Below are positions 9,768 to 35,803 of a DNA stretch of 37,835 nt, piece by piece (positions within the stretch are counted from its first letter, which is position 1; each line of letters begins with the position of its first letter). Position numbers and translations under genes: made by a program. Source of the DNA: Kaiparowitsia implicata GSE-PSE-MK54-09C (GTDB lineage Bacteria; Cyanobacteriota; Cyanobacteriia; Elainellales; Elainellaceae); NCBI GenBank assembly GCA_019359435.1, contig JAHHHI010000016.1, forward strand, positions 1 through 37,835. The letters run 5' to 3'. A model generated the notes under the pieces. That model worked only from the letters and a program-made list of their open reading frames with translations. It was not told the DNA's origin and did not search any database.

Positions 9768-11507
9768 TTGGCTAGAGACCTAACGCAACGTTCTAATTAC
9801 AGGCGGCTGTTGCCGCTGCTGCGACCGCAGGGGCGCACCATTACCCTGGCGCTGATGTGTACGGCAGTGTTTACAGCTGCCTGGCCGCTGACGGCATGGC
9901 TGGCTGGCAAGCTGCTGTCTGCGCTGGTTGGGGGCAACCTCCGCACCTTGGTTCTGCTATCTGCGGTGGTAGCGGCAATTTTTCTGGTGCAAAAAATTGC
10001 CCAGTATGGGCAAGATTCTCTGATGGCACGGGCGGCGCTGGCGATCGCCCTTGACCTGCGCCAGCGCACCTACACCCATCTGCAACGCCTCAGCCTCAGC
10101 TACTTTGAGCGGGCGCAAACCGGAGATCTCACCTATCGCCTCACAGAAGACATCGACCGCATTGGCGAAGTCATTAACAAAGTCTTTCACGACTTTGTGC
10201 CCTGCCTGTTGCAGCTAATCGTTGTGTTTGGCTACATGATTTATCTCAACTGGCAGTTGACCCTAGCCAGCATTGTAGTTGCACCGCTAATGGCGGTGCT
10301 GATTGGCTGGTTTGGCGAGCAATTGATGGCGACCTCTCGCAAAAGCCAAAACCTGGTCTCAGATTTATCGTCTTTATTAACCGAGGTATTTAGCGGCATT
10401 CGCCTGGTTCGCGCCTTTGCAGCAGAGGACTTTGAGATTCAGCGATTTGGTCAAGAGGCCGAGCGCAATCGCCGTGCCAAGTATGCCACCGCTTGGATTA
10501 AGGCGGTGCAGTATCCCGTGGTGGGATTTCTGCAAACCCTCAGCATTTTGCTGCTGCTGCTGCTGGGGGGCTGGCAAATTTCGACGGGGAATCTAACGGG
10601 CGAGGCGTTCGGGAGCTTTGTTGTGGCAGTGGCCTGGCTGATTGACCCCATCGCCCACCTGACTGAAAACTACAACGAGTTCAAACAGGGAGAAGCCTCG
10701 GTTGATCGCATATTTGAACTACTGGATCTCGAGCCTGCGGTGGTGGAGCTGCCCGGGGCGATCGCCCTACCTCGCGTGACGGGCAAGGTGGAATACCAGA
10801 ATGTCAGCTTTGGCTATGAGCCAAGAGCGCCCGTGTTGAGCCACCTCAACCTGCTGGCTAAGCCGGGAGAGGCGATCGCCCTTGTGGGTGCCTCGGGTGC
10901 GGGCAAAACCACCCTGGTCAATCTGTTGCCCCGGTTCTACGATCCCCAAGGGGGAACCATTTGGGTGGATGGGGTGGATATTCGCCAGGTTACGCTGCGC
11001 AGTCTGCGTCGCCAGATTGGCATTGTGCCCCAAGAGAGCATTTTATTTTCGGGAACCATTGCCCAGAATATTGCCTTTGGGCAGCCAGAGTTTGAACTAG
11101 ACGCCGTGGAAGAGGCGGCGCGCATTGCCAACGCTCACCAGTTCATCACCCAATTTGCCCAGGGCTACCACACCTGGGTCGGCGAGCGGGGTGTCAATTT
11201 GTCGGGTGGGCAGCGGCAGCGCTTGGCGATCGCCCGAGCTGTGCTGCTCAATCCCCGCATCCTGATTCTGGATGAAGCCACCTCAGCCCTCGACTCTGAA
11301 TCAGAAGCGCTGGTGCAAGAGGCGCTGGAACGACTCATGTGCGATCGCACTGTATTTATCATTGCCCACCGACTGGCCACAGTGCGCCGGGCTCACCGCA
11401 TCCTGGTGCTCGAACAGGGCCAAGTGGTCGAATCTGGAACCCATGACGCCTTAATCCTGCAGCAGGGCCGCTATGCCCGCTTCTACGCTCAGCAGTTTTC
11501 TGGATAA
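9768..11507 (+). CDS. ABC exporter, fused transmembrane and ATPase domains (MsbA-like half transporter)
   Basis: The 579-residue product is a half transporter expected to work as a homo- or heterodimer, pumping a lipid, peptide or drug-like substrate out of the cytoplasm. Residues 20-310 form the six-helix membrane domain, including the coupling region LSLSYFERAQTGDL. Residues 340-579 are the nucleotide-binding domain: Walker A GASGAGKTT (374-382), Q-loop Gln422, signature LSGGQ (478-482), Walker B ILILDEATSALD and an H-loop IAHRLAT. The start is TTG at 9768. An in-frame TAG at 9762-9764 excludes an earlier start, and the next ATG lies inside the first helix. The substrate cannot be read from sequence. 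The divergent neighbour is the giant kinase, with which it shares a 281-bp upstream region. Confidence 0.9.
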   Translation: MARDLTQRSNYRRLLPLLRPQGRTITLALMCTAVFTAAWPLTAWLAGKLLSALVGGNLRTLVLLSAVVAAIFLVQKIAQYGQDSLMARAALAIALDLRQRTYTHLQRLSLSYFERAQTGDLTYRLTEDIDRIGEVINKVFHDFVPCLLQLIVVFGYMIYLNWQLTLASIVVAPLMAVLIGWFGEQLMATSRKSQNLVSDLSSLLTEVFSGIRLVRAFAAEDFEIQRFGQEAERNRRAKYATAWIKAVQYPVVGFLQTLSILLLLLLGGWQISTGNLTGEAFGSFVVAVAWLIDPIAHLTENYNEFKQGEASVDRIFELLDLEPAVVELPGAIALPRVTGKVEYQNVSFGYEPRAPVLSHLNLLAKPGEAIALVGASGAGKTTLVNLLPRFYDPQGGTIWVDGVDIRQVTLRSLRRQIGIVPQESILFSGTIAQNIAFGQPEFELDAVEEAARIANAHQFITQFAQGYHTWVGERGVNLSGGQRQRLAIARAVLLNPRILILDEATSALDSESEALVQEALERLMCDRTVFIIAHRLATVRRAHRILVLEQGQVVESGTHDALILQQGRYARFYAQQFSG

Positions 11508-11516
11508 GTTCAGGAC

Positions 11517-11582
11517 GCTGCCCAAATGCTGCCCAGATGCTGCCCAGATGCTGCCCAGATGCTGCCCAGATGCTGCCCAGAC
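11517..11582. repeat. Six tandem copies of an 11-bp unit
   Basis: The unit GCTGCCCAGAT is repeated six times with a strict 11-bp period starting at 11517, 11528, 11539, 11550, 11561 and 11572. The first and last units are slightly degenerate. The array begins 10 bp after the stop codon of the ABC exporter. It lies in a 660-bp non-coding stretch before the cox operon. Confidence 0.9.
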
Positions 11583-12168
11583 GCCATATTGCCCTAGCCG
11601 CCAGCCTTAAGAAGCAGGAAAGATTGCAGATTGCAACAAAAGCCTCACCCTCCCGGTAGAGCCTTGGGGATCGCGTTAGCATCGAAAAGATTTCAGCGAT
11701 GCATGAGGATGACAACGCGATTTTGTTCGTTACAACACAACTGCATTTACGAAGTGCAGTCCTAAAATCAACCCTATCTGTATAGCATTGCATCAAAGGT
11801 CAAATTGATTGCGCCATCATCACTCCATCCCCCTCAAGATGTAAAACAAATCATAAGTTTCCTCCACGACTTGGATTTGGATGATATTACAGAGGGGCAG
11901 GTGTAGCGCTGCGGATTGCATAATCGTGTGTGAAATAGCCAAACAGTCACCTGATTAATTTCTATCAATTGAGACGAGACTGCAAATTAATGGCTCGATT
12001 GAGTACTGCTAAATTGAGCCTAGGTTGAGCTATTTAAGCGCTATCTGAGTTTGGATTGCGCTAGTCAAGGGTTTTAGTTTGTTCTCGATTGGTCAGGCCC
12101 TGGTGCGCATCCGGTTACGCAGAGAGCCGCTACTTGTTTGAACGTTTTGAATTGTTGAGTTTCTCTTC
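11583..12168. promoter_or_regulatory. Long upstream region of the cox operon
   Basis: About 590 bp without a convincing gene precede coxB. The last 300 bp are AT-rich and presumably carry the operon promoter and regulation. I found no clear GTA-N8-TAC NtcA site or other named operator. Short open frames here lack protein character. Confidence 0.4.
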
Positions 12169-17734: not shown

Positions 17735-18239
17735 TGCCTTTAAAGGGTTAAGGCGATCGTTGACTCCCTGCAATCATCCTGAGTTGAGGACGCTAAGACC
17801 CGCTGAATTCACGGCCTGGGTTGGATCAGGCTGCGTTCAAGTTAATGCCAGTTCGGCAAATGCTTAAAACCGTACTGCCTGCGACGCGGGCAGTACGGTT
17901 TAGCGTTGATTTAGCCCCGCACTGGTGGGCTAAATCAACGCTAAACCGACTCATATTCAGGAGTTAAGCCTCGATCTTACGTTTGATCAGTGGCCTTTTC
18001 ATCATCACTACGCGTGCCCGCAGCGCGGATGAGTACTGACGGTGTGGAACAGGTGGAGCACCCTCGCGTCACGGTGGATTCCACAACCCTACTTGCCGAA
18101 CCCAGGCACTCTCAGCGAATCTGAGCGAATCCGTCTAGACCACGAACAGGGTGCCAAGTCCTGCGGTAAAGTCAGAACGGTGTGATGCAGTATCTACGGT
18201 ACACACCCCTGTCTTGGTCGGCTTGTCTACGTACCGCAG
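17735..18239. other. Intergenic region holding a palindromic element
   Basis: About 500 bp lie between the DUF3747 and TRIC-type genes. The centre is occupied by two strong overlapping inverted repeats, listed separately. No open frame here resembles a protein. Confidence 0.5.
17846..17970. repeat. Palindromic element with two competing hairpins
   Basis: Hairpin 1 pairs AAACCGTACTGCC (17867-17879) with its exact complement at 17889-17901. Hairpin 2 has 22-base arms at 17896-17917 and 17927-17948. The six bases CGGTTT at 17896-17901 belong to both, so the two full hairpins exclude each other. The left flank GTTAATGCCAGTTCGG resembles the termini of the elements at 25384 and 26521. Confidence 0.7.
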
Positions 18240-19099: not shown

Positions 19100-19372
19100 A
19101 TGAACATTATCGCTTGGATCATTTTGGGTCTGCTGGCTGGTGCGATCGCCAAGGCCATTGTTCCCGGTCGTCAGGGTGGCGGCATCCTGGGTACGATGCT
19201 ACTAGGTATCGTGGGTGCATTCATTGGGGGGACGTTGGTAACCTTGCTCACTGAAGGGTCGCTGGCCTTTACAGCGACTTCCCTCAGCATCCCTGGTGTG
19301 ATTGTGGCCGTGTTGGGTGCTATCATCGCCATCTGGCTGTGGAGCATGCTTACCCGTAGCACAACGGTTTAA
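19100..19372 (+). CDS. GlsB/YeaQ/YmgE family stress-response membrane protein
   Basis: This is a 90-residue, very hydrophobic protein with three membrane segments (about 3-20, 28-50 and 63-84). The first loop has the family motif AKAIVPGRQGGGILGTMLLGIVGAFIGG. Members were once called transglycosylase-associated proteins and are often induced by acid or envelope stress; the molecular function is unknown. The ATG at 19100 begins MNIIAWIILGLLAGAIA, which is typical of the family. A strong terminator lies about 185 bp downstream, leaving room for a long 3' untranslated region. Confidence 0.88.
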   Translation: MNIIAWIILGLLAGAIAKAIVPGRQGGGILGTMLLGIVGAFIGGTLVTLLTEGSLAFTATSLSIPGVIVAVLGAIIAIWLWSMLTRSTTV

Positions 19373-19590: not shown

Positions 19591-20194
19591 ATGCGGTTCT
19601 ATGGAGTTCTATGCGGACTTATGCATTTTTACGGGAGCTTTTGATGCGCGAACTCTTAAATTCTTGTATGTAACATCCATCGCGTGGCTGCAACCCGCAA
19701 TGATTCCCCATGCAATCAGCAATTCGCACTGGCTCCAGCACAGGTTCTAGTATTTGGTGCTGCTTGTATCGGAAGGGCTAAAAATAGCGGCTCATACTGG
19801 GGGCTGTTGGGTCATATCCTTAAAACCAGCAATAACGAAATTACAAAGCTGGTTTAATGTATCTGGTGTATAAGAAACAAGGGATTAAAAAAGACACCTG
19901 TAGAGCAGACTAAATTTCAACCAGGCGGTGCCGAAACGCACTAGAGTTGTGCGATCGCTCCTCAGCGCGACAGCCACTCATCCCGTGACGACAGCGCTTA
20001 CTTGTCTTAGCCTTATTCCATATAGGAACGATGTGGTGAAGTCTACAACCTGGGTAACGCAGGGGCTCTATACCTATCCTCTGCTCTATCATTTGGCTCT
20101 ACTATGGTGAGATCTGTTGTGGAAACTCGACCAGCCCCAGTGCTGCAACCCTCTGCTTACCTTGCATCAACCAGCTCCAACCCGAGAAGACCTT
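19591..20194. other. Intergenic region before the M15 peptidase gene
   Basis: Roughly 600 bp with no supported gene. Open frames on both strands lack domain features and have unnatural composition. The region is AT-richer than its neighbours from 19800 to 19920. I see no strong hairpin or named regulatory site. Confidence 0.4.
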
Positions 20195-21487
20195 ATGGTA
20201 AAGCGCACCTTACGAATTAACCGCGACACCCAGTTCAAGCTCCGCGCAGAGCCGCTGGTACAGCTCAGCAATAACGAGCGCCACAACGTTAGGGCGGGCA
20301 CTGTCTACGAAATTCAGTCGTATGCCTATGCCGATGCCGACGGAGATTTCAACGGGCATATCAAATTTGCGCTGCTCGGTCGTAGCATTCAAGGGTTTAA
20401 CACGTGGTTTATCCACAGCTCTGCCGCACAGGTAGAATTTGACGGGGTGGTGGTTTATCCCCATGAGGATCAATCGTCGACGCCAATTCTAGAAGTAGTG
20501 CAAGGGACAGTGTTCAAGCAACGACCACTGCAATCGTCGGTGCTGGCCCCTGGTGAAACTGTGAGTGTGCCTCAGGGGCGACGGTTTTTGCTGCACTCCT
20601 ATGCCTATTCAGATCGGCTAGGTGATTTTAATGATCATGTGCGGATTGCCATCCGCAATGAGAGCGACTTTTTGCAAGAGCGAAGCTCTTGGTATGTTTA
20701 CAAATTCCATGCCTTTGTTGAGTTCGATGGTGATGTCGTTTATCCCAAAATTGAACCCAGCGACTTTGTGCTGAAGATTACTGAAAACACGGTGTTTAAG
20801 CGGCGACCGCTGCAATCGTCTCAGCTTCCGGCTAACGAACGGGTGTCAGTGACGAGTGGCACCAACCTCATTGTGGGGAGCTATGCCTTTGCCGATGCCT
20901 CTGGCTCCTTTAACAATCACATTCGCTTCTCGATTAAGTATCCCAAAGATAATATCAACGGCTTGAATACCTGGTATGTCTTTGACCAGCATGCCCAGGT
21001 ATTGCTAGACAACCGCGTGGTGTATCCTCAACCCCGCCCACCCGCACCACCGCCGTCCACCTTTCCGGGAACTCCGTTTCAGGTGCCGGGGATTGGCCGG
21101 GTCTTTACCGGACAGCCGATTATCCCCAACGGCAATTTTTCTTGGGGCGAGGCAACCCGCAATGGCGCGCGCATTCCTGCCAATGCTACGATCGCCCGCG
21201 ATATTGTAACCTTAGCGCGAGAGCTGCAGCGGGCACGCAATCAGATTGGCCGTCCGTTTCGGGTCAATTCTTGGTACCGTCCGCCAGATGTGAATGCAGC
21301 AGTGGGGGGGGCGTCTCGCAGTCAACATTTGTTTGGTAGAGCGGCTGATTTGCAGGTGGCTGGGCTTAGCGGGCGGGCCGTTGCTAATGCTGTGTTTCCT
21401 TGGTGGAATGGGGGCATTGGCATTTATAGCAATCTACCTAATGTGGTGCATTTAGACACTGGGCCACGGCGCTACTGGGGGTTTTAG
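20195..21487 (+). CDS. M15-family peptidase domain protein with three N-terminal repeats
   Basis: The product is 430 residues from the ATG at 20195, which has AGAAG just upstream; the frame also extends back to a non-ATG start at 20117. Residues about 1-290 consist of three copies of an 80-90-residue module. Each copy contains FK.R(A/P)L, a turn such as YADADGDFNGHI or YSDRLGDFNDHV, a W(F/Y) pair, and a final VVYP. The C-terminal domain is of the peptidase M15/YcbK type. It has SQHLFGRAADLQV (zinc ligands His378 and Asp385) and VVHLDTGPRRYWGF (His419), which suggests cleavage of peptidoglycan peptides. There is no signal peptide. The repeats may bind a surface or polymer, which is inference. 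Confidence 0.82.
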   Translation: MVKRTLRINRDTQFKLRAEPLVQLSNNERHNVRAGTVYEIQSYAYADADGDFNGHIKFALLGRSIQGFNTWFIHSSAAQVEFDGVVVYPHEDQSSTPILEVVQGTVFKQRPLQSSVLAPGETVSVPQGRRFLLHSYAYSDRLGDFNDHVRIAIRNESDFLQERSSWYVYKFHAFVEFDGDVVYPKIEPSDFVLKITENTVFKRRPLQSSQLPANERVSVTSGTNLIVGSYAFADASGSFNNHIRFSIKYPKDNINGLNTWYVFDQHAQVLLDNRVVYPQPRPPAPPPSTFPGTPFQVPGIGRVFTGQPIIPNGNFSWGEATRNGARIPANATIARDIVTLARELQRARNQIGRPFRVNSWYRPPDVNAAVGGASRSQHLFGRAADLQVAGLSGRAVANAVFPWWNGGIGIYSNLPNVVHLDTGPRRYWGF

Positions 21488-23384: not shown

Positions 23385-25385
23385 ATGAAACCAAAGGGAA
23401 AGCCCACCGGGCGATCGCCCCAGCCACGACGTAATCCAAAAGCCCCATCAAAGCCCGCGTCCGTAATCCGCTCTCGACGCACGATACGGGCGGTGCTGTT
23501 GGGTGGGGCGATCGCCCTCGGCATGGGGGGAGCCTTGGGCTATTTTTTGGTAGATCGACGCACGGTGGCGGTGCAAGATGTGCCACCTGGCGTGGATGTG
23601 CTGCCCCAAACCACGCTGATGGCGGTGTCGATTTCCACCGACCCCACCCAATGGCGACGGCTGCGCGCGCTCGGCACACCGGCCTCGCGCGCCGTGCTGG
23701 ATGAGCAACTGGTGCAGTGGCGCGATCGCCTGTTAACCCAAAATGGTTTGCAGATCGACCGCGCGACCGCGGCCTGGCTGGGCAGCGAAGTGACCCTGGC
23801 CTTGCTGCCTTCTGCGGAAGATTTACTAGAGCAATCTCCGCCTGTTGCTCCGTCACCGTCTCTTGACTCGTCTGAAGATCCCAACTTGTCTGAAGATAGT
23901 CTAGAAGCAGACAGGCCAGACGCGCCTATAGACGGCGAGGCCGATGGGGAGCCAGAGCTAGGCGCAGAGATCGCCACGCCCGAGGGTGCCATTATCGAAC
24001 TGCCGACGCCTAGCTTTGTCGAGCAGGATGCCCAGCGGCCCTTGCTTGCGGTGCTCCCCGTGACCGATGTTGAGCAGGCGCAGCAAGCCCTAGCAGACCT
24101 GAGTCCGCCCCAGACCACCGCCAGCTCTCGCACCTATCGGGGGCAAGCCATTCGAGAGTTTGTGGATGGCGATCGCACCCTAGCGGCCATGCTGCTGGGC
24201 GATCGCTACCTGATCATCACCAACCAGTCTGCTGCCCTCGACGCGGTAATTGATACCGACCAGGGCGAGCCATCGCTAGAGCAGATTGCCACCTATGGCG
24301 AAGCCCTGCGCGATGTGGCCGCCACCCAGCCCCTGGCGCGCATCTATCTAAATGGCCCAGGGATGAAAGAGTGGGCGATCGCCCGCTCTGCCCAGCCTGC
24401 GCCACTCCTGGGCCTATCGCCCATTCAGCGCAACCAAGGCGTGGCGGCTACCGTATCGCTCGAAGCCAGCGGTCTGCGGCTGCGGGGCATGGGCTGGCTG
24501 CCGCTAGAGGGAGACGATCGCCACACCGTCTCGAACCAGGCAGGCGGACTGCTCGACCTGCTACCCGACGATGCGCTCATGGTTGTCTCAGGCGACAACT
24601 TCAAAGACTTTTGGGAGACCTACCGTCAGCAGCCGGTCGCCAACCCCCGCAACCCCCTCAACCCCAACACGCTACACGAAGCCATCGTGGGCTCAACCGG
24701 GCTAGCGCTCGATCAAGATTTTGTGAATTGGATGGATGGGGAGTTTGCCCTGGCCTTGGTGGCGATCGCGCCAGAGCCCTCTCCCAACGCAGCCTCGGGG
24801 AATGCCCCAGAGCAAGCCGGGCTGGTGTTAATGGCAGAATCGAGCGATCGCCCCACCACGGAAAACACCCTCAAGCGGCTAGATGATGTGATGGGCAACC
24901 GCTACCGCTATCAAATTAGCGCCGCCGACATCGGCGGACAGCCCGTCGTCAACTGGGTGTCGCGCTTTGGCTCCCTCACGGCCAGTCATGGCTGGCTCGA
25001 CGGCAGAACCGCCTTCTTTGTCCTGGGGACATCCGTGGTGAATGCGCTGCTGCCCGCCCCCGCTCAGCCCCTCAGCGATAGTGACCTCGCGACTGCAACT
25101 CAATCTCTCGACCTCGCCGCCTACAATGGCCGAGTTTTAATTGATGTGGAACAGCTGCGCCAGGTTAATCGTTCTATCCCTATTCCCCTCCTGCCTCAAC
25201 TGCCAGGCAGCAGCAGCGATGCAATCCTAGAGGCGATGCGTCAGATCGGCATTACCTCTGCCATTCGGAGCGATCGCACCACCCAATTCGACGTCCGTGT
25301 GTTGCTCAAACGCGAGGGCGACCTCCAGCCGCTGCCGCCCCCCGACACCACTCCAGCGCCAGCCGACGGGCCAGACACTAACTAA
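23385..25385 (+). CDS. DUF3352 domain-containing membrane-anchored protein
   Basis: The product is 666 residues from the ATG at 23385, preceded by GGAG at eight bases; an ATG at 23367 is less well placed. A basic proline-rich N-terminus of about 30 residues leads to one membrane segment (about 36-56, AVLLGGAIALGMGGALGYFLV). The rest would be outside the cytoplasm. It contains LPQTTLMAVSISTDPTQWRRL, an acidic low-complexity insertion at about 160-215 rich in Asp, Glu, Pro and Ser, then LLAVLPVTDVEQAQQAL and DALMVVSGDNFKDFW. These blocks match the cyanobacterial DUF3352 family, which has no known function. The stop codon abuts the palindromic element beginning at 25384. Confidence 0.85.
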   Translation: MKPKGKPTGRSPQPRRNPKAPSKPASVIRSRRTIRAVLLGGAIALGMGGALGYFLVDRRTVAVQDVPPGVDVLPQTTLMAVSISTDPTQWRRLRALGTPASRAVLDEQLVQWRDRLLTQNGLQIDRATAAWLGSEVTLALLPSAEDLLEQSPPVAPSPSLDSSEDPNLSEDSLEADRPDAPIDGEADGEPELGAEIATPEGAIIELPTPSFVEQDAQRPLLAVLPVTDVEQAQQALADLSPPQTTASSRTYRGQAIREFVDGDRTLAAMLLGDRYLIITNQSAALDAVIDTDQGEPSLEQIATYGEALRDVAATQPLARIYLNGPGMKEWAIARSAQPAPLLGLSPIQRNQGVAATVSLEASGLRLRGMGWLPLEGDDRHTVSNQAGGLLDLLPDDALMVVSGDNFKDFWETYRQQPVANPRNPLNPNTLHEAIVGSTGLALDQDFVNWMDGEFALALVAIAPEPSPNAASGNAPEQAGLVLMAESSDRPTTENTLKRLDDVMGNRYRYQISAADIGGQPVVNWVSRFGSLTASHGWLDGRTAFFVLGTSVVNALLPAPAQPLSDSDLATATQSLDLAAYNGRVLIDVEQLRQVNRSIPIPLLPQLPGSSSDAILEAMRQIGITSAIRSDRTTQFDVRVLLKREGDLQPLPPPDTTPAPADGPDTN

Positions 25386-25511
25386 CCTGAGTTCGGGATA
25401 AGCTCAAACCCTTAATGTGCCGTGCGCGACGCGCACGGCACATTAAGGGTTTTGGGGCATCGCGCGTCGCGCGATGCCCCAAAACCCTCTTAACCCGAAC
25501 TGACGTTAACT
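25384..25511. repeat. Complex palindromic element, copy 1
   Basis: An outer arm GTTCGGGATAAG (25391-25402) pairs, with one mismatch, with 25489-25500. Inside are two strong hairpins. One has 22-bp arms at 25406-25427 and 25431-25452 with a three-base loop. The other is an almost perfect palindrome at 25446-25488 centred on 25467. The hairpins share AGGGTTT (25446-25452) and so compete. A second copy lies in inverted orientation at 26521-26650. Confidence 0.9.
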
Positions 25512-25663
25512 AGCAGAAGGGCTAAAACTGGCATAGCATAGCCAGCTACACCCCACTCCAGCGCAGCACAGTTCCCATGCGCTCAAGCAGCACCATGTCC
25601 GCATCAGCCGCCCAAAGAGTGCTAGGGTGCAAGGGAAACGCCCTATCTAACTCAACCTCTCCT

Positions 25664-26470
25664 ATGAAAGAACAGCCCAGCATTCCTACCCTCATCGTGC
25701 TTAGCCTGGTGGGACTGCTGACCATCATCGGTCTGAATTCCTTTATCATCATCAACCCTGGCGAAGCTGGTGTGCTGAGCATTTTGGGCAAAGCCAGAGA
25801 CGGCGTCCTGCTAGAAGGGGTGCATGTTAAGCCGCCTCTCATCGCCAAGGTGGATGTATACGATCTCACCGTGCAGAAATTTGAGGTGCCCGCTCAAAGC
25901 TCTACCAAAGACTTGCAGCAGCTCTCTGCCAGCTTTGCCATCAACTTCCGTCTAGACCCCATTGAGGTGGTCACCATTCGCCGCACCCAGGGCACATTGC
26001 AAAATATTGTGTCCAAGATCATTGCGCCCCAAACGCAAGAATCCTTCAAAGTGGCAGCAGCACGACGCACCGTAGAAGAAGCCATCACCAAGCGAGAAGA
26101 ACTGAAGCAAGACTTTGATGAAGCCCTCGGCATGCGGCTCAACCGGTACGGCATCATCGTTCTCGATACCAGCGTGGTGGATTTAAACTTTTCGATAGAG
26201 TTCTCTAGAGCGGTTGAAGAAAAGCAAATAGCTGAGCAGCGAGCCCAGCGGGCAGTCTATGTAGCGCGCGAAGCCGAGCAAGAAGCCGAAGCCACCATCA
26301 ACCGCGCCAAGGGGCAAGCCGAAGCCCAGCGTCTGCTGCGCGAAACCCTCACATCCGAGCTATTGCAGAAACAGGCCATTGAAAAGTGGGATGGCAAGTT
26401 CCCGCAGGTGCTAGGGGGCAACGGGGCCGTGCCGTTCCTTAACCTAGAGCCGGGTGTTCTAACCAAGTAA
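25664..26470 (+). CDS. Band 7 / prohibitin (SPFH) family protein
   Basis: The product is 268 residues from the ATG at 25664. One N-terminal membrane segment (about 8-30) anchors the protein. It is followed by the SPFH domain with NPGEAGVLSILGKARDGVLLEGVH, a central strand-rich part, and AARRTVEEAITKREELKQDFDEAL. A long charged helix (about 180-235, rich in Glu, Ala, Gln and Arg: AREAEQEAEATINRAKGQAEAQRLL) would form the coiled coil used for ring assembly. In cyanobacteria, prohibitin homologues sit in thylakoid or plasma membrane and form large ring oligomers linked to protein quality control. Upstream in-frame codons to 25577 lack family character. The gene is bracketed by inverted palindromic elements. 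Confidence 0.92.
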   Translation: MKEQPSIPTLIVLSLVGLLTIIGLNSFIIINPGEAGVLSILGKARDGVLLEGVHVKPPLIAKVDVYDLTVQKFEVPAQSSTKDLQQLSASFAINFRLDPIEVVTIRRTQGTLQNIVSKIIAPQTQESFKVAAARRTVEEAITKREELKQDFDEALGMRLNRYGIIVLDTSVVDLNFSIEFSRAVEEKQIAEQRAQRAVYVAREAEQEAEATINRAKGQAEAQRLLRETLTSELLQKQAIEKWDGKFPQVLGGNGAVPFLNLEPGVLTK

Positions 26471-26520
26471 CAACCAGAGAACCCATGCTGGTTTATCTGG
26501 CTCCAACAGTTAAGTTGGAT

Positions 26521-26650
26521 TAACGTCAGTTCGGGATAAGAGGGTTTTGGGACATCGCGCGACGCGCGATGTCCCAAAACCCTTAATGTGCCGTGCGCAT
26601 CGCGCACGGCACATTAAGGGTTTGAGCTTATCCCGAACTCAGGTTGGATT
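26521..26650. repeat. Complex palindromic element, copy 2 (inverted relative to copy 1)
   Basis: This is the reverse complement of the element at 25384-25511 with very few differences. The outer arms pair perfectly here: GTTCGGGATAAG at 26529-26540 and CTTATCCCGAAC at 26627-26638. One inner stem has GGGACAT paired with ATGTCCC, where copy 1 has GGGGCAT paired with ATGCCCC, a compensatory change. A 10-bp direct repeat GTTGGATTAA lies at both ends (26514-26523 and 26643-26652) and may be a target duplication. Confidence 0.9.
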
Positions 26651-26652
26651 AA

Positions 26653-26953
26653 AATCAGCTCAGCAAATTGACTGCGGCTGACCCAAAAATAAGGGGTTAT
26701 AGCCTCTAGCCTGTTTGTTAGTCGGGCGTGGCAATGCTGATGAAAGAAGGCTTGTAGTCAGAATTGATGACACGCCCTAGCCCTCTCTCAAGGGCAATGA
26801 GCCAGGATCTCTCGTTTGCTTCTCCTAAAGTTTTAAAGGATAAGCGATGTCCTTAGCTTGCTGAAGGGGGTTGAGGATGGGTGCAATTAACATCTACAAT
26901 TCAGCAATGCCCAACGTGCTTGACCCAATGTGCTTGATCGCTAGCAGTTAGCC
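26653..26953. other. Intergenic region between element copy 2 and the sensor kinase
   Basis: About 300 bp with no supported gene, hairpin or recognisable regulatory site. The kinase on its right is transcribed toward this region, so its terminator would be expected here, but I do not see a convincing one. Confidence 0.4.
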
Positions 26954-29080
26954 CTATTTGCATTCTTTGGGACACTTTGGCCAAGTAAAGCGGAAGGTTG
27001 TGCCCTGCCCGAGTACTGACTCGACGGTGATCGTGCCGCCGCCTTCTTCCACAATCTTCTTCACAATAGATAGCCCAATCCCGGTGTTTTCTTGTTCGTC
27101 GCGGGGCTTAAGGGTTTGAAAAATAGTGAAAATCTTAGCGTGATAACCAGCGTCGATGCCAGGGCCATCATCCGTCACCCAAAATTCGTAGAAATCTTCT
27201 CCGCCATCCGCACAATGAATGCTGATGTGTCCGGCAGTGTGGTCATGATGCTTAATGCCGTTGCTAATGAGGTTAGAAAAGACTTGCTCTAGCAAGATGC
27301 GCTTGGCTTTAAAAGTGGGCATGGGTGACGCGATAGTGACGTTGAACCCGGCTGGCGGTGCTAAAGAGTCGATCATTTCTTCTAACAACAATTGAACGTT
27401 GACTTCGCTGGTGGTAGTTTCGACTCGCCCCACACGAGAATATTCCAACAGCCCGTTAATGAGCGCCTCCATGCGATAAACCCGAAGCCGCATCAGGTTG
27501 AGCAGATCTTTGCTGTCGTCTGAGAGGTTCTTATCTAGGTCTTCTTCAAGCCATTCAGATAGGTTGGCGATCGCCCGCAGCGGTGCCTTTAGATCATGTG
27601 ACACCACATAGGCAAACTGGTCAAGTTCTTGATTGCGCTTGCGCAACTGATGGGTAACACCTGACAGCAACCGATTAACCTGCACTAGCTCACTGGCTCG
27701 CTCTTGCAGGGCACGTTCTGTTCGCTTCCGTTCAGTAATTTCTTGCGCCGTTAGGTTCATCGCCCAAACCCGGCTACCCTCGTCCTTAATCGGGCAAAAG
27801 CTCACCAGCCACACGCGGTCACTGCCCCGCCGCGCTGGGGTACTCCCCCAGATTTCAGTGTTCAGAATGGGGTCGCCTGTTTCTAAAGCTCGATAGAAAT
27901 AGGTTTGCAGTGTGTCCCAAATGTCTGGTAGAAGCTCTTGAACCGTGCGTCCAGCATGTTCGGCAATTGAGAGGCCATTGATATCGGCTAGATGTTGGTT
28001 AATGCGAACATAGCGTGCTTCGGTATCTAGCACGCATAGCCCAATTGGGGTCGTGACGTAAATCGCCTCAATTTCGCTAAACTGCCGCTGAGCAGTTTGT
28101 TCGCTGTGGCGCAGGGCTTGCTCATTCTGATGGCGTGCGGTGGTATCTGACACCACACCCACCATCCGCAAAGCCTTACCGTCTTCTCCGCGGTAACAGC
28201 GGCCATAGGTGTCAACCCAGCGCTGCTCACCCGTGGGTAACACAATGCGATATTCACAGATAAGCTCAGCACCACAGTTGGCGATCGCCGCTTCAATTTG
28301 CGCCTCTGTTTTAGCCAAATCATCGGGGTGTACTCGACACCTCCAATCCTCATAGGTGCGGTTGGGTTGCCCGGGCTCATAGCCAAAAATCTGTTCTTGC
28401 GTCGGCGTCCACACCACCGCATTAGTAGTCAAATCCCAATCCCAAGACCCCATCTGTGCCGCATCCAACGCTAAAGTTAGCCGTTCGGCATAGCGTTCGA
28501 TCTCAGTGCGCGATCGCTCAGCCAACCCTTGCGCCGCCTGCGCCGCCTCAAGCAAGCCCTCCATCTGGCGGTTTGACGCTTCTAGCTGTGTGGTTCGTTC
28601 CGCCACCAACTCTTCTAACTGTGACTGGTAGCGCTTCAGCTCCTGCTCTACCCTAATGCGTTCCGCAATTTCAGCTTGCAGGGCTTGGTTAGTCTGCTCC
28701 AGAGCAGCGGGGCTCGGCAGCGCCAGCGCTTGAGGCACAATCGGCACCAGTTCAATTGCTGTAAACACCGAAATCCCCGCGGTAAAAGCCTTGACCGATC
28801 CCGAAAGCCAATAGGCTGGGTGCCATAGCGTCCAGATAGACAGCAGATGCGTGGTGCCACAGGCCACAATAAACAGACTAAACATCCAGAAAATAGCGTT
28901 AAACGGTAGATCTTTGCGCCGCCGCACAAAGTACACCAACGTTAACGGAATGGAGTAATAAGCTAGGGCAATCAGCGCATCTGAAACGAGGTGCAGCCCC
29001 ACCAGATTAGGGTTCCAAAGGTAGCAATGCCCATGGGGTATAAATGAGCCCACCTCAAATAAGCGTTCAATCACTGGCAT
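26954..29080 (-). CDS. Ethylene-receptor-like sensor histidine kinase with PAS domains
   Basis: The product is 708 residues from the ATG at 29078-29080; a TTG at 29116 would add 12. The N-terminal 110 residues form three membrane helices that match the ethylene-binding domain of plant ETR1. HLVSDALIALAYYSIPL aligns with its helix 1, and FIVACGTTH carries Cys74 and His78, equivalent to the copper ligands Cys65 and His69. Asp34 and Tyr41 keep the same spacing as Asp25 and Tyr32. A coiled coil (about 130-200), a PAS domain with PAC (about 200-320) and a second PAS (about 330-450) follow. The kinase core has YVVSHDLKAPL with His495, an N box, TDDGPGID and NTGIGLSIVKK. Synechocystis has an ethylene-binding kinase of this class. 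No response regulator is adjacent. Confidence 0.93.
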   Translation of the reverse strand: MPVIERLFEVGSFIPHGHCYLWNPNLVGLHLVSDALIALAYYSIPLTLVYFVRRRKDLPFNAIFWMFSLFIVACGTTHLLSIWTLWHPAYWLSGSVKAFTAGISVFTAIELVPIVPQALALPSPAALEQTNQALQAEIAERIRVEQELKRYQSQLEELVAERTTQLEASNRQMEGLLEAAQAAQGLAERSRTEIERYAERLTLALDAAQMGSWDWDLTTNAVVWTPTQEQIFGYEPGQPNRTYEDWRCRVHPDDLAKTEAQIEAAIANCGAELICEYRIVLPTGEQRWVDTYGRCYRGEDGKALRMVGVVSDTTARHQNEQALRHSEQTAQRQFSEIEAIYVTTPIGLCVLDTEARYVRINQHLADINGLSIAEHAGRTVQELLPDIWDTLQTYFYRALETGDPILNTEIWGSTPARRGSDRVWLVSFCPIKDEGSRVWAMNLTAQEITERKRTERALQERASELVQVNRLLSGVTHQLRKRNQELDQFAYVVSHDLKAPLRAIANLSEWLEEDLDKNLSDDSKDLLNLMRLRVYRMEALINGLLEYSRVGRVETTTSEVNVQLLLEEMIDSLAPPAGFNVTIASPMPTFKAKRILLEQVFSNLISNGIKHHDHTAGHISIHCADGGEDFYEFWVTDDGPGIDAGYHAKIFTIFQTLKPRDEQENTGIGLSIVKKIVEEGGGTITVESVLGQGTTFRFTWPKCPKECK

Positions 29081-29851
29081 ATTGACGAGTTGACAGAGGG
29101 AAAACGAATTAGACAATCTTTAAAGCAACGCCACGGACATCCAATTCTCGTGGCCTTAGTAGCGTGATGAAGCTCAACCGCTGGCTACTCCTATACTGGC
29201 TACTCCCGTATTGGTGAGGTGTGGAACTGTTCCCTAGTGACAGTGACCATAAGGCTAAACTTAGTGTTTGAACTGAACAATGGCCCCATAAGCCCTGATA
29301 TTCTGGCTGTATCTAGCGTTTGAGTCGCTTTGCTGATACATCCCAGTTCAAACATCAGACGCTGGGAATACTGCTAGCAGTAGCTCTAAACAGCTTTAAA
29401 TAAGAAGCATCCCTGAGGTCAGGATGTTGAACAGGGTAAGCACAGCACATACCACTCAACATTCTGACTGGTTTAGAGCGATGCTTGAACAAACATGTGG
29501 GGTGCTGGGTTAAGTCTATGCAGTCGAGAGTCAAGTAAGCCTGCCGTAACTTATAAGCCTGCCGTAACTTATATGTCATCTCTGCTAGACCTCGCACCTC
29601 AATCTGACAAGTTTGAGCTTTGAACATGCTGATTTTGGCTGATTTTGTCTAGCTCTGACCCAGCAAATAACTGTGTTAGACGTAGGGCAACTCTTTGAAC
29701 TCTTGTGAGCGGATGAGGGATTAGTATGAATATGAATTACCCTAAACTCCATGAAAATAAATTTATGGAATCCTGTCTACTCCCCCTGCGGAATATTTCA
29801 ACATGCTGAGTAAGAACTGAAGCATGCCAACAAGGTCAGCATATTTCGTGA
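29081..29851. other. Long intergenic region with an 18-bp tandem duplication
   Basis: About 770 bp between the ethylene-receptor-like kinase and a doubtful small frame. The only clear structure is a perfect tandem duplication of TAAGCCTGCCGTAACTTA at 29536-29553 and 29554-29571. A minus-strand open frame over 29355-29627 contains this duplication but shows no recognisable domain. Confidence 0.5.
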
Positions 29852-30335: not shown

Positions 30336-30454
30336 TTTTCTAAAATCTATACATATCAAGGGTTGTATCGTCCATCAACAAGATGATTCAGAGCCTCGCT
30401 AAGTCCCTGCGGCCAGGTACTGTTATGCCACTTTTGGCCATTTTGGTTAGAATT

Positions 30455-30475
30455 TGGATCGAAAATGGATCGAAA
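30455..30475. repeat. Direct repeat between tRNA-Ala and integrase
   Basis: TGGATCGAAA occurs at 30455-30464 and 30466-30475, an 11-bp period and so on the same face of the helix. Its place between the tRNA and integrase would suit an integrase arm-type or regulatory site. That is inference only. Confidence 0.4.
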
Positions 30476-30519
30476 GACTCCCTCCCTCCATTCGCTCCAT
30501 TCTCAGTGGGGCTTTCACC

Positions 30520-31635
30520 ATGGCTAATACTGCTAGAGCTAAGAAGGGCACCGTCTCGGTGACCAGCGACCGAGATCGATTGCGTCTGGGCTGGCGTTAC
30601 AAAGGGGAACGCTATTTTCTGTTTATTGGGCTCCCTGACACCATCACGAACCGGAGAGTGGCAGAGGCCAAAGCGTCTCAAATCGAGCTCGACATGATGT
30701 CAGGGCATTTCGATCCAACGCTTCGAGCCTATAAATTGCAGCTTCCCAATCGCAGCCAGCTGACTGTTACAGGCCTATTCAACAAATTCATCTGGCACAA
30801 AGCAAAGACAGTCGCTTCGGCCACCCTGGATAAATACCGTGGACTGCTGAACTATTTGAAGGAATTCTTTAAAGCCCGCTCGGTTGCTGAAGTCAGTGTA
30901 GCCGAGGCCGAAAAATTCACCAGCTGGTATGACTCTCAAGATTTATCCAAGGTTGTCATTCGAGAACGCCTGGGACTGTTAAAGGCTTGCTGGGAGTGGG
31001 GGATCGAGCAGGCTTTAGTTGAATCTAATCCTTGGGTAGATATGCCTTTAAGAATTAAGGTTCCGCCAAAACAAATGCCTAAGCCTTTCACCGAGGCAGA
31101 AATAAAATTAATTGTTGAGGCATTTAAAGCTAATCGTTATTATCGCCATTACGTCAATTTTGTGGAGTTTCGCTTTGGAAGTGGTTGCCGTACCGGAGAG
31201 GTTGTGGGCCTACGGTGGAAACATATCTCTGAGGATTGCTCAACCATCTGGATTGGTGAGGCTTTAGTCAAAGGAAAACAGAAAGCCACAAAAACGAACC
31301 GGTCTCGGTATATCACTCTGACGTCTAAATTGCAGACAATGCTTCAAGGATTGAGGCAAGCTAATAGTGATCCCAATGATTTAGTTTTTAAGGGGCCGAA
31401 AGGAGCTCCTATCGATGCAAAAAACTTTGCCCAACGAGGATGGCAGAAGATTTTAACTAAGTTAGGTATTGATTATCAAAGACCTTACAATACCCGACAT
31501 GCCTTGATTTCTCATGCCCTGGATAAAGGTATGAATCCGGTGGAAGTAGCTCAGTTAACAGGGCACGATGTGCAGACGCTTTACCGAAATTACGCAGGTA
31601 ACGTCAACAGCCGCCCTCGCTTACCAGAAATATAA
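30520..31635 (+). CDS. Tyrosine-type site-specific integrase
   Basis: This recombinase would integrate or excise the element. The product is 371 residues from the ATG at 30520; the frame extends back to a TTG at 30454. It has an N-terminal arm-binding-like domain (about 15-75), a core-binding helical domain (about 82-175), and a catalytic domain (about 188-360). Catalytic residues visible are Arg224 in GSGCRTGEV, Arg326 in PYNTRHALIS, His349 in LTGHD, and the nucleophile Tyr358 in LYRNYAG. The usual box II histidine three residues before Arg326 is a tyrosine here, a variant I recall from other phage-like integrases. The adjacent tRNA-Ala is the natural candidate target site. Confidence 0.9.
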   Translation: MANTARAKKGTVSVTSDRDRLRLGWRYKGERYFLFIGLPDTITNRRVAEAKASQIELDMMSGHFDPTLRAYKLQLPNRSQLTVTGLFNKFIWHKAKTVASATLDKYRGLLNYLKEFFKARSVAEVSVAEAEKFTSWYDSQDLSKVVIRERLGLLKACWEWGIEQALVESNPWVDMPLRIKVPPKQMPKPFTEAEIKLIVEAFKANRYYRHYVNFVEFRFGSGCRTGEVVGLRWKHISEDCSTIWIGEALVKGKQKATKTNRSRYITLTSKLQTMLQGLRQANSDPNDLVFKGPKGAPIDAKNFAQRGWQKILTKLGIDYQRPYNTRHALISHALDKGMNPVEVAQLTGHDVQTLYRNYAGNVNSRPRLPEI

Positions 31636-34741: not shown

Positions 34742-35649
34742 CGCCGGATGAGTTAGCGGGCCTCTTCAAGGGGCAGAACCAGTACCGCAATGGCCGAGGT
34801 AACGATAAAGAGTCGCTGCTGACGGCCTTTGATGGCTCGGGGTTAAAGGTGGATCGGGCCAGTGGTTTGCGTATCAGCCTGCCGCGCACCAGCCTGAGCC
34901 TGACGGGGACGATTCAGCCTGATATTCTGCGGGAGATGATGGGGGATTGCTCGGATGCCAGCGGCCAATGGGCGCGTTTTTTGTGGTGTCTGCTGCCGCT
35001 GAAGCCTGCGCCGTTTCCCCGCCAGACGCTGCCTCACGATATTTCAGACCGGCTCTATGGCCTCTACCAAAGGCTGGAGGGACTGGCTCCCCAATGCTAC
35101 CGATTGACGACTGAGGCTAAGGTTCTATTTGCAGATTGGTATGACCAGTTGGATCAGCTACGGGTGACGGAGACGCACCCAGGCTTGCAGGCGGTCTATT
35201 CTAAAATGCAGGGTTATACGGGGCGACTGGCGCTGATTCTCCACTGCCTGAATGCGGTGATGGATAGAGGGCTACCGATTAATGCGATAGATGCCGAGAA
35301 GATGAGGGCTGCGATTAAGCTGGGGCGTTGGTTTATTGGACAGGTGAAGCTGCTCTATGCGGATGGGAATACGGTGGATGGGGCGCTGGAGCCGGTCTAT
35401 ACGAAGCTGATACAGCTATCGCGGGTGCGGGGCTGGCTACGGGCGAAGGATGTGCGGAATTATGAGCGCAGTTTACGGAAGGCAGGGGTGGAGGTGATTC
35501 GCGCTCATTTTTTGGAGCTGGAGGCGATGGGGTATGGGGAAACCCAGGGGATGGGGAATCGGCTGCGGTGGCGGGCAACGGTAGACGCGGTAGACAGATT
35601 TGAGGAAACGGTAGACGGAGTGTCTACCGCTGAAAGTGTTGATGGATAA
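34735..35649 (+). CDS. C-terminal fragment: DUF3987 helicase-like region
   Basis: This is a 304-residue frame whose first codon here is a GTG lying within the ancestral ILVTPDELAGLFKGQNQYRNGRGNDKESLLTAF. The segments LSLTGTIQPDILREMM and ASGQWARFLWCLLPL, and a helical C-terminal region (YSKMQGYTGRLALILHCLNAV), follow the DUF3987 pattern. The last 25 residues (TVDAVDRFEETVDGVSTAESVDG) are a consequence of the CGGTAGAC motif array extending into the coding region. Translation from 34735 would give a helicase fragment without its P-loop. Confidence 0.75.
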   Translation: MVTPDELAGLFKGQNQYRNGRGNDKESLLTAFDGSGLKVDRASGLRISLPRTSLSLTGTIQPDILREMMGDCSDASGQWARFLWCLLPLKPAPFPRQTLPHDISDRLYGLYQRLEGLAPQCYRLTTEAKVLFADWYDQLDQLRVTETHPGLQAVYSKMQGYTGRLALILHCLNAVMDRGLPINAIDAEKMRAAIKLGRWFIGQVKLLYADGNTVDGALEPVYTKLIQLSRVRGWLRAKDVRNYERSLRKAGVEVIRAHFLELEAMGYGETQGMGNRLRWRATVDAVDRFEETVDGVSTAESVDG

Positions 35650-35803
35650 GGGTTATAGCGAAACGGTAGACAAGTAGACAGGGTTTGCTAATGGGGAATT
35701 GCTAGGAAAGTGTCTACCGTCTACCGAAATGGCTGAAGGGCTTATAGGCAAAGGGTTTTGCCCGGTAGACAGAGTGTCTACCGGGCGTCTACCGTGTCTA
35801 CCG
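35579..35803. repeat. Array of CGGTAGAC / GTCTACCG motifs (iteron-like)
   Basis: Eleven exact 8-bp motifs lie in 225 bp. Five are forward (35579, 35588, 35609, 35664, 35763) and six reverse (35622, 35712, 35719, 35776, 35787, 35796), with a degenerate AAGTAGAC at 35672. The 35761-35785 stretch is a perfect 11-bp inverted repeat with a three-base centre. The array overlaps the 3' end of the primase-helicase gene and fills the gap before the toxin remnant. Placement beside a primase suggests an origin or a multi-site operator. Confidence 0.85.

Follow-up and report, generated by a model that had tools for sequence, protein, structure and literature searches.

A dispersed 122-bp element with IS982-type ends and two overlapping hairpins flanks a Band-7 gene in Kaiparowitsia implicata

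The locus and its two element copies

Miniature inverted-repeat transposable elements (MITEs) are short, gene-less mobile repeats. Here, we describe a MITE of 122 bp, two copies of which flank a Band-7 gene in the cyanobacterium Kaiparowitsia implicata GSE-PSE-MK54-09C. The window, meaning the whole stretch of DNA analysed, comprises positions 1 to 37,835 of contig JAHHHI010000016.1 (C16 of the 6.72-Mb draft genome GCA_019359435.1, handled as G000). An earlier sequence-only reading had described two nearly identical inverted elements of about 125 bp around the gene. The elements are real: 25384-25509 and 26520-26645 are inverted and 97% complementary across 126 nt. Measured end to end, from 5'-AC to GT-3', the element has a length of 122 bp. 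The features of the pair are as follows.

25379-25384: left target-site duplication of copy 1, TAACTA, an exact match to 25507-25512, overlapping the stop codon of the upstream DUF3352 gene
25385-25506 (+): MITE copy 1, 122 bp, 5'-AC...GT-3'; a 126-nt stretch is identical at six other places in the genome
25385-25402 (+): left terminal inverted repeat of copy 1, ACCTGAGTTCGGGATAAG; its core motif also stands on both sides of IS982-family transposase matches on contigs C35 and C1
25406-25452 (+): hairpin 1 of copy 1, 23-bp arms, 1-nt centre; two-sided changes and reverse-complemented loops across copies
25446-25488 (+): hairpin 2 of copy 1, 21-bp arms, 1-nt centre; has 7 nt in common with hairpin 1; two-sided changes and reverse-complemented loops across copies
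25489-25506 (-): right terminal inverted repeat of copy 1
25507-25512: right target-site duplication of copy 1, TAACTA
25664-26470 (+): Band_7/SPFH gene, a bystander (PF01145, E 3.2e-33)
26516-26522: left target-site duplication of copy 2, TGGATTA
26523-26644 (-): MITE copy 2, 122 bp, opposite orientation, GGGACAT/ATGTCCC type
26541-26583 (-): hairpin 2 of copy 2
26577-26623 (-): hairpin 1 of copy 2
26645-26651: right target-site duplication of copy 2, TGGATTA

Both copies contain two perfect hairpins of 47 nt and 43 nt that have 7 nt in common (25446-25452 in copy 1), together with an outer terminal stem, just as the sequence-only reading had proposed. The predicted DNA fold of copy 1 has an energy of -55.6 kcal/mol (z = -13), and 0 of 200 shuffled sequences fold as well. 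A paired stem difference between the copies, GGGGCAT/ATGCCCC versus GGGACAT/ATGTCCC, had also been pointed out and is present. The GGGACAT type occurs in two other collected copies, each with a different target duplication, so the paired change need not have arisen at the window pair. The duplications at the pair itself differ as well, TAACTA around copy 1 and TGGATTA around copy 2, so that the copies are two independent insertions. A 10-bp direct repeat, GTTGGATTAA, had been noted at the edge of copy 2; it consists of the 7-bp duplication TGGATTA extended by the terminal bases of the element, while the duplication of copy 1 had been overlooked. Copy 1 lies in the stop codon of the DUF3352 gene (25383-25385): the joined flanks read AAC TAG and the occupied site AAC TAA, whose final A is contributed by base 1 of the element.

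A dispersed family with IS982-type ends

A 126-nt query matched all 40 scored candidates (the best 40 of 269 in the K. implicata genome) over 123-126 nt at 98-100% identity, seven of them identical throughout, one being the window copy itself. The end pattern, defined as two end motifs 71-101 nt apart, occurs exactly at at least 66 places in this genome, and the pattern read backwards, used as a control, at 0. For further measurements, 184 copies were collected from K. implicata (73) and two other genomes, G013 (37) and Leptolyngbya sp. FACHB-8 (74), the K. implicata and FACHB-8 sets being samples. An end-motif and flank filter that demands both ends within 3 mismatches dropped 6 of them, leaving 178 copies (71, 35 and 72, respectively), 164 of which are exactly 122 bp long.

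Flank pairs are distinct in 178 of 178 copies over the three genomes and in 71 of 71 in K. implicata, where two copies have a common 12-nt left flank. Target duplications of at least 5 bp surround 136 of the 178 copies: 59 of 71 in K. implicata, 19 of 35 in G013 and 58 of 72 in FACHB-8, against shuffled means of 1.9, 0.7 and 1.9. Those in K. implicata are 6 bp (33 copies), 7 bp (24) or 8 bp (2) long, with 12 copies having none; 56 of the 59 begin with T and 56 of the 59 end with A, and the shuffled control gives a mean of 1.9 and a maximum of 7 copies with a duplication. The mobility suspected in the sequence-only reading is supported by the many further copies, most of which have target duplications of their own.

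According to passages of PMC7335449, IS982 elements have 5'-AC(N)6T(N)5TT ends, and their direct repeats vary in length. The element starts with AC in 69 of the 71 K. implicata copies and its end consensus has T at positions 9 and 15, so that it resembles these insertion sequences (ISs) in its 5'-AC ends, in both T positions and in its variable-length direct repeats; it differs from them in having A at position 16, where the IS consensus has T, and in containing no transposase gene. At 122 bp it is too short for one, and the open reading frames (ORFs) of at least 80 aa that touch copies enter from the flanks. It is near certain that the window elements belong to a dispersed 122-bp MITE family with IS982-type ends.

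An IS982-family transposase recognising the same ends would move, or would have moved, the element in trans. The end core brackets an IS982-type gene at two places in the K. implicata genome, on contig C35 (cores at 19244 and 20200-20212 around a PF13612 match at 19626-20099) and on contig C1 (cores at 388 and 1344-1356 around a match at 501-974). The genome has 9 PF13612 matches, some of them fragments, and an ORF on contig C7 (231 aa from a GTG start) scores 213 bits against the NCBI IS982 family model, for which the cut-off is 130. Judged by sequence comparison, the ends agree well with IS982 and the partner appears to be only a candidate, with no clearly complete transposase seen. The copy-rich G013 and FACHB-8 genomes, which have no PF13612 match, may carry orphaned MITEs, or the partner may be missing from the draft assembly; a match was likewise not found in genome G009, and genome G037 has 8.

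Insertion sites are mostly intergenic, as judged by a simple ORF heuristic rather than by gene calls: 59 of the 64 copies with enough flank lie outside ORFs of at least 120 aa, and of sites drawn at random from these loci 66% fall within such ORFs. Neighbouring ORFs at the 56 classifiable sites are convergent (20), tandem (27) or divergent (9). This bias fits tolerated insertions, and a function is neither needed to account for it nor excluded by it.

Shortened forms also occur. Seven mini forms of 45-47 bp in the K. implicata genome (L083-L089) are little more than the two ends, three of them with exact target duplications, and look like the outcome of a loss of both hairpins between sub-terminal AAACC repeats. 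One 84-bp form joins both hairpins at their similar tips.

Among 60 genomes, 8 (including K. implicata) have a match to the element, and three alone have it at full length: K. implicata, G013 (86-90% identity to the K. implicata element) and FACHB-8 (G003; 75-77%). G003 was equated with FACHB-8 because copies have the same contig coordinates in both. The double-hairpin element is abundant in two other genera of the same family. Exact-pattern copies number 113 in FACHB-8 and 0 in G013, where the left end is one base off the pattern. A scan of named genomes yielded at least 92 stretches with the end pattern. Among the matches listed, stretches from FACHB-8 fold at -61 to -84 kcal/mol; those from Nostoc, Calothrix, Gloeocapsa, Nodosilinea, Mastigocoleus, Fischerella and other cyanobacteria fold no lower than -45 kcal/mol, and a few come from Bacteroidota and others. 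The Bacteroidota stretches with the same end motif (L147, L154, L159, L161 and L170) are from Prevotella, Porphyromonadaceae, Hoylesella and Parafilimonas, and L147 folds at -50 kcal/mol. We also rejected a spread by plasmids or phages, having found zero blastn matches in plasmid and phage collections and zero exact pattern matches in viral contigs. Genome G034 (L093, L100) has a different double hairpin, GGGTTTTGGGG... followed by a second stem with CTGGTTTTCC; it has no end motif and resembles hairpin 2.

Two-sided changes, loop inversions and plain relatives

Stem and loop counts refer to the 164 copies of exactly 122 bp (65 from K. implicata, 32 from G013 and 67 from FACHB-8); the other 14 were viewed separately. 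At 37 stem pairs, 96-98% of cells are Watson-Crick (distinct rows). Changes on both arms of a stem are frequent, with 55 cells of 21 types in K. implicata (shuffled means 11.8 and 3.5), 116 cells of 21 types in FACHB-8 (32.3 and 7.1) and 34 cells of 21 types in G013 (2.8 and 2.7), and these counts were reached by 0 of 500 shuffles in any of the three genomes. Among the copies of other lengths, four related 124-bp copies in K. implicata have a base added in both arms (GGAGG/CCTCC), and one 120-bp copy in FACHB-8 has its stem shortened on both arms; the remaining length variants are one-sided or tip deletions. Such paired insertions and deletions cannot pass through a G-U step.

The three-base loops occur in both orientations. 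Every loop present in at least four copies is also found reverse-complemented, and some rarer loops have no such partner. In FACHB-8, loop 1 occurs as AAA in 23 copies and TTT in 11, as GAC in 11 and GTC in 3, and as TTC in 5 and GAA in 3, and loop 2 as AAC in 25 and GTT in 13, and as GAA in 12 and TTC in 7. The corresponding counts in K. implicata are GAC 43 and GTC 5, GGT 10 and ACC 1, and GAT 3 and ATC 1 for loop 1, with GTC 48 and GAC 15 for loop 2; in G013 they are GAC 20 and GTC 8 for loop 1 and CCG 19 and CGG 6 for loop 2. Copies whose reverse-complement loop also occurs number, for loops 1 and 2, 63 and 63 of 65 in K. implicata (P = 0.0004 and 0.016), 58 and 62 of 67 in FACHB-8 (P = 0.0006 and 0.0002) and 28 and 25 of 32 in G013 (P = 0.020 and 0.029), under a null of random triplets that ignores base composition. 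The pairs AAA/TTT, AAC/GTT and GAA/TTC differ at all three positions, and GGT/ACC at two or three. Three FACHB-8 backgrounds that are identical outside the loops carry three-base flips, and such flips (AAA/TTT, AAC/GTT and GAA/TTC) are the clearest cases of loop inversion. On trees built without the loops, the minimum number of loop changes is 13 in K. implicata and 31 in FACHB-8 (loop types in at least 8 copies), rough figures from poorly resolved trees.

Template switching between the two arms of an inverted repeat makes the arms alike and turns the spacer round (PMC8604942), and it has been proposed both to create and to maintain hairpins (PMC8794818). Paired changes, paired insertions and deletions and loop inversion are the footprints of this process. 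The replicating strand would fold back and copy sub-terminal segments as inverted copies, and in this way template switching would have turned a plain 122-bp element into one with two overlapping hairpins. The same process would keep the hairpins near-perfect: a mutation in one arm would be lost or else transferred to the other, and the loop between the arms would be turned round during the copying.

At least 14 plain 122-bp elements, with nearly identical ends and no such hairpins, are found in other cyanobacteria. A plain consensus was made from 11 of the 14 (six Nostoc, two Calothrix, Gloeocapsa, FACHB-321 and Nodosilinea). Compared position by position with the hairpin consensus sequences, these 11 elements have a mean identity to the K. 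implicata consensus of 0.61 over positions 19-43, 0.32 over 44-68, 0.36 over 69-84 and 0.29 over 85-104 (shuffled nulls 0.25, 0.24, 0.23 and 0.24), and to the FACHB-8 consensus of 0.54, 0.24, 0.22 and 0.32 over the same four segments (nulls 0.23-0.25). In 24 scored alignments to K. implicata copies, the plain consensus aligns at up to 97% over 1-30 and 96% over 98-122, with nothing between, and plain-type copies were not found in K. implicata, G013 or FACHB-8, where it aligned at the ends alone (24 candidates scored in each). By this pattern of identity, two parts look inherited, namely arm 1 of hairpin 1 and the base of hairpin 2; most of the remainder looks rewritten. The plain 122-bp element is the probable ancestor of the hairpin element. 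The sub-terminal AAACC repeats at both plain ends would explain the AGGGTTT common to both hairpins, one inverted copy being able to complement both.

Weighing the explanations

The best explanation for the window pair, with a probability of roughly 0.83, is that a MITE with IS982-like ends inserted twice independently, that its hairpins were made and are kept by template switching, and that the gene lies between the copies by chance. For the family at large, we propose more tentatively, at slightly below even odds, that template switching remodelled a plain MITE internally without altering its length, giving two overlapping palindromes that are maintained near-perfect by replication and not by selection, with arm mutations mirrored or erased and loops that flip back and forth.

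Several observations pull the other way. On the side of the transposase, the C7 ORF, which is the best of K. implicata, has no counterpart to profile positions 1-30, the C35 transposase copy has stops in frame, an exact target duplication was not seen around the C35 or C1 elements, and PF13612 matches are zero in the copy-rich draft assemblies of G013 and FACHB-8; the hairpin element and the C35 and C1 ISs have their ends alone in common. On the side of the stems, the copies are related, so that cells are not independent events and the shuffles ignore common descent; recombination between copies could spread or mimic some two-sided changes; and the broken pairs of K. implicata taken alone lean to G-T. 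Base composition is left out of the loop null, and read or polymerase chain reaction artefacts at the hairpin tips may contribute. A single base separates the members of the commonest loop pairs of K. implicata and G013 (GAC/GTC and CCG/CGG), for which a point transversion is as good an explanation as a flip; the three identical K. implicata backgrounds with both orientations are all GAC/GTC, and G013 has no such background. As to ancestry, the case for the plain element is a parsimony argument, the similarity between the middles of the hairpin and plain elements slightly exceeds the shuffled null in K. implicata and G013, and an intermediate with a single hairpin was not found, so that the succession of these steps is one that we infer.

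The strongest alternative is that ectopic recombination between copies, rather than template switching within a molecule, produced the two-sided changes and the loop flips. Each genome offers many similar copies and palindromic arms can pair in either orientation, yet such recombination accounts for the spread of a two-sided change and not for its first origin, and 21 two-sided types in each of three genomes, together with the paired insertions and deletions, need an arm-copying step. We therefore regard it as unlikely.

Selection on an RNA, in which the hairpins would serve as a bidirectional terminator, an mRNA stabiliser or an attenuator-like switch whose 7 shared nucleotides make the hairpins alternatives, appears improbable. 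The very stable predicted structure and the many two-sided changes would suit it, as would the scarcity of copies inside ORFs and the excess of convergent over divergent neighbours, although any tolerated insertion would show such an intergenic bias. A preference for G-U wobble was looked for and is not seen overall: broken pairs over the three genomes (distinct rows) comprise 53 G-T, 61 A-C and 39 others, with G-T to A-C counts of 10 to 5 in K. implicata, the one set that leans towards RNA, 25 to 38 in FACHB-8 and 18 to 18 in G013. Transcription from both strands would blur this test. An intrinsic terminator pattern (a GC stem followed by a T-run) was found at one site in 25300-26750, inside the Band-7 gene, and at neither element, so that the terminator role suggested by the sequence-only reading finds no support in the sequence. 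A known RNA family was rejected too: Rfam gave four matches at E values of at most 1, to microRNA and snoRNA families, and each of them scores far below the gathering score. Inversion of a three-base loop has no RNA explanation, and related elements in other cyanobacteria do without such hairpins. Two-sided changes, paired insertions and deletions, loop flips and the want of an overall G-U preference make arm-to-arm DNA copying, by template switching or palindrome conversion, the probable cause rather than RNA selection. The sequence-only reading was right that the structure has been preserved; this preservation looks more like such copying than like proof of a selected function.

The remaining alternatives concern the Band-7 gene. 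A search of 36 genomes of the family, K. implicata included, gave Band-7 matches in 35, many of them merely distant paralogues. Loci around the best match were compared in 22 relatives (48-89% identity, at most 1.5 kb on each side, several shortened by contig ends). The element is missing beside the gene in 21 of the 22, save for 14- and 26-nt matches at chance level, and the exact end motif is at none of the 22. The exception is locus L308 of G013, in which a partial copy of G013 type (a 54-nt match at 87%) adjoins the Band-7 3' end at a contig edge. In these 22 loci, tblastn detected neither the DUF3352 gene nor the downstream kinase, and since no orthologous empty site was obtained, it is the target duplications that stand for the empty site. 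Random placement of 71 copies in 6.72 Mb would give 0.84 pairs as close as this one with a uniform spread, and 2.5 if the copies were restricted to 34% of the genome. The position of the Band-7 gene between two copies is due to chance.

An invertible segment of 25.4-26.6 kb acting as a phase switch is very improbable: arms of 126 bp that are 97% complementary and about 1 kb apart could allow homologous recombination, but both copies are no different from the other members of a dispersed family and have duplications of their own, and nothing marks the pair as a switch. Least probable of all is a composite transposon with the inverted copies as its ends and Band-7 as its passenger, the mobile cassette envisaged in the sequence-only reading, for which the geometry of one gene between inverted copies and the partial copy near the Band-7 3' end in G013 would speak, but which we reject because each 122-bp element is a unit with its own, different target duplication instead of one around the whole, the loci of 21 of 22 relatives (several of them shortened) are without the element beside the gene, and 0.8-2.5 such pairs are expected by chance.

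Other features of the window and genome are recorded here. A histidine kinase gene at 26954-29116 (-) encodes an ethylene-receptor-like N-terminal domain (ETR1_N, PF25487) and PAS domains, and a tyrosine recombinase (Phage_integrase) gene lies at 30454-31635 (+), 4 kb downstream of the pair. An 11-bp tandem repeat, GATGCTGCCCA, occupies 11503-11590, directly past an ORF end. A perfect 22-bp inverted repeat with a 9-nt spacer, CGGTTTAGCGTTGATTTAGCCC, lies at 17896-17948 and is unlike the MITE, and two near-identical 21-bp palindromes, CGGTAGACGGAGTGTCTACCG, are found 154 bp apart at 35609-35629 and 35763-35783. The K. implicata genome also has many copies of GCGATCGC, a motif linked to cyanobacteria.

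Among the systems compared, the closest described relative of the element is the IS982-derived MITECca01 of Cardinium (PMC9769881), likewise short, gene-less and present in many copies, with ends like those of an IS982 element of the same genome. MITECca01 is about 240 bp long and from another phylum, and the terms "hairpin" and "secondary structure" do not occur in the main text of PMC9769881, whereas the present element has 122 bp, two overlapping hairpins and loops in both orientations. Nezha and other MITEs of cyanobacteria, named in PMC10969869 and PMC3733652, share the type of element and the host group, and the word IS982 does not occur in the available text of the MITE review PMC10969869. 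REP palindromic repeats are likewise dispersed palindromes that occur in cyanobacteria too; as passages of PMC3733652 describe them, REPs are 20-40 bp long with a GTAG or CGTC tag, in contrast to 122 bp, inverted AC...GT ends and target duplications here, and an identity with REPs was rejected on size, ends and target duplications (RAYT genes were not searched for). Template-switch (quasipalindrome) mutation leaves the same footprints of arm homogenisation and spacer inversion, and the precedents in the parts of PMC8604942 and PMC8794818 drawn on are yeast genes and RNA genes, in place of copies of one bacterial repeat. Neither the element nor any cyanobacterial IS982 MITE was found described in the titles and abstracts listed from open-access papers, a scope that leaves subscription papers mostly outside and does not prove that a description is lacking. 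What sets the element apart from known IS982-type MITEs is its pair of overlapping, self-mirroring hairpins.

Paired stem changes are usually considered to prove that an RNA structure is under selection. In the present case, paired changes, paired insertions and deletions and loop inversions are seen across three genera in a selfish repeat that has no evident RNA role, a caution that covariation alone is poor evidence of function in repeats. The many similar copies could make the footprint of template switching measurable in bacteria, and they suggest a route by which palindromes arise inside existing elements. If its palindromes are indeed kept by replication, the family would offer a natural record of how palindromes copy themselves in bacterial chromosomes.

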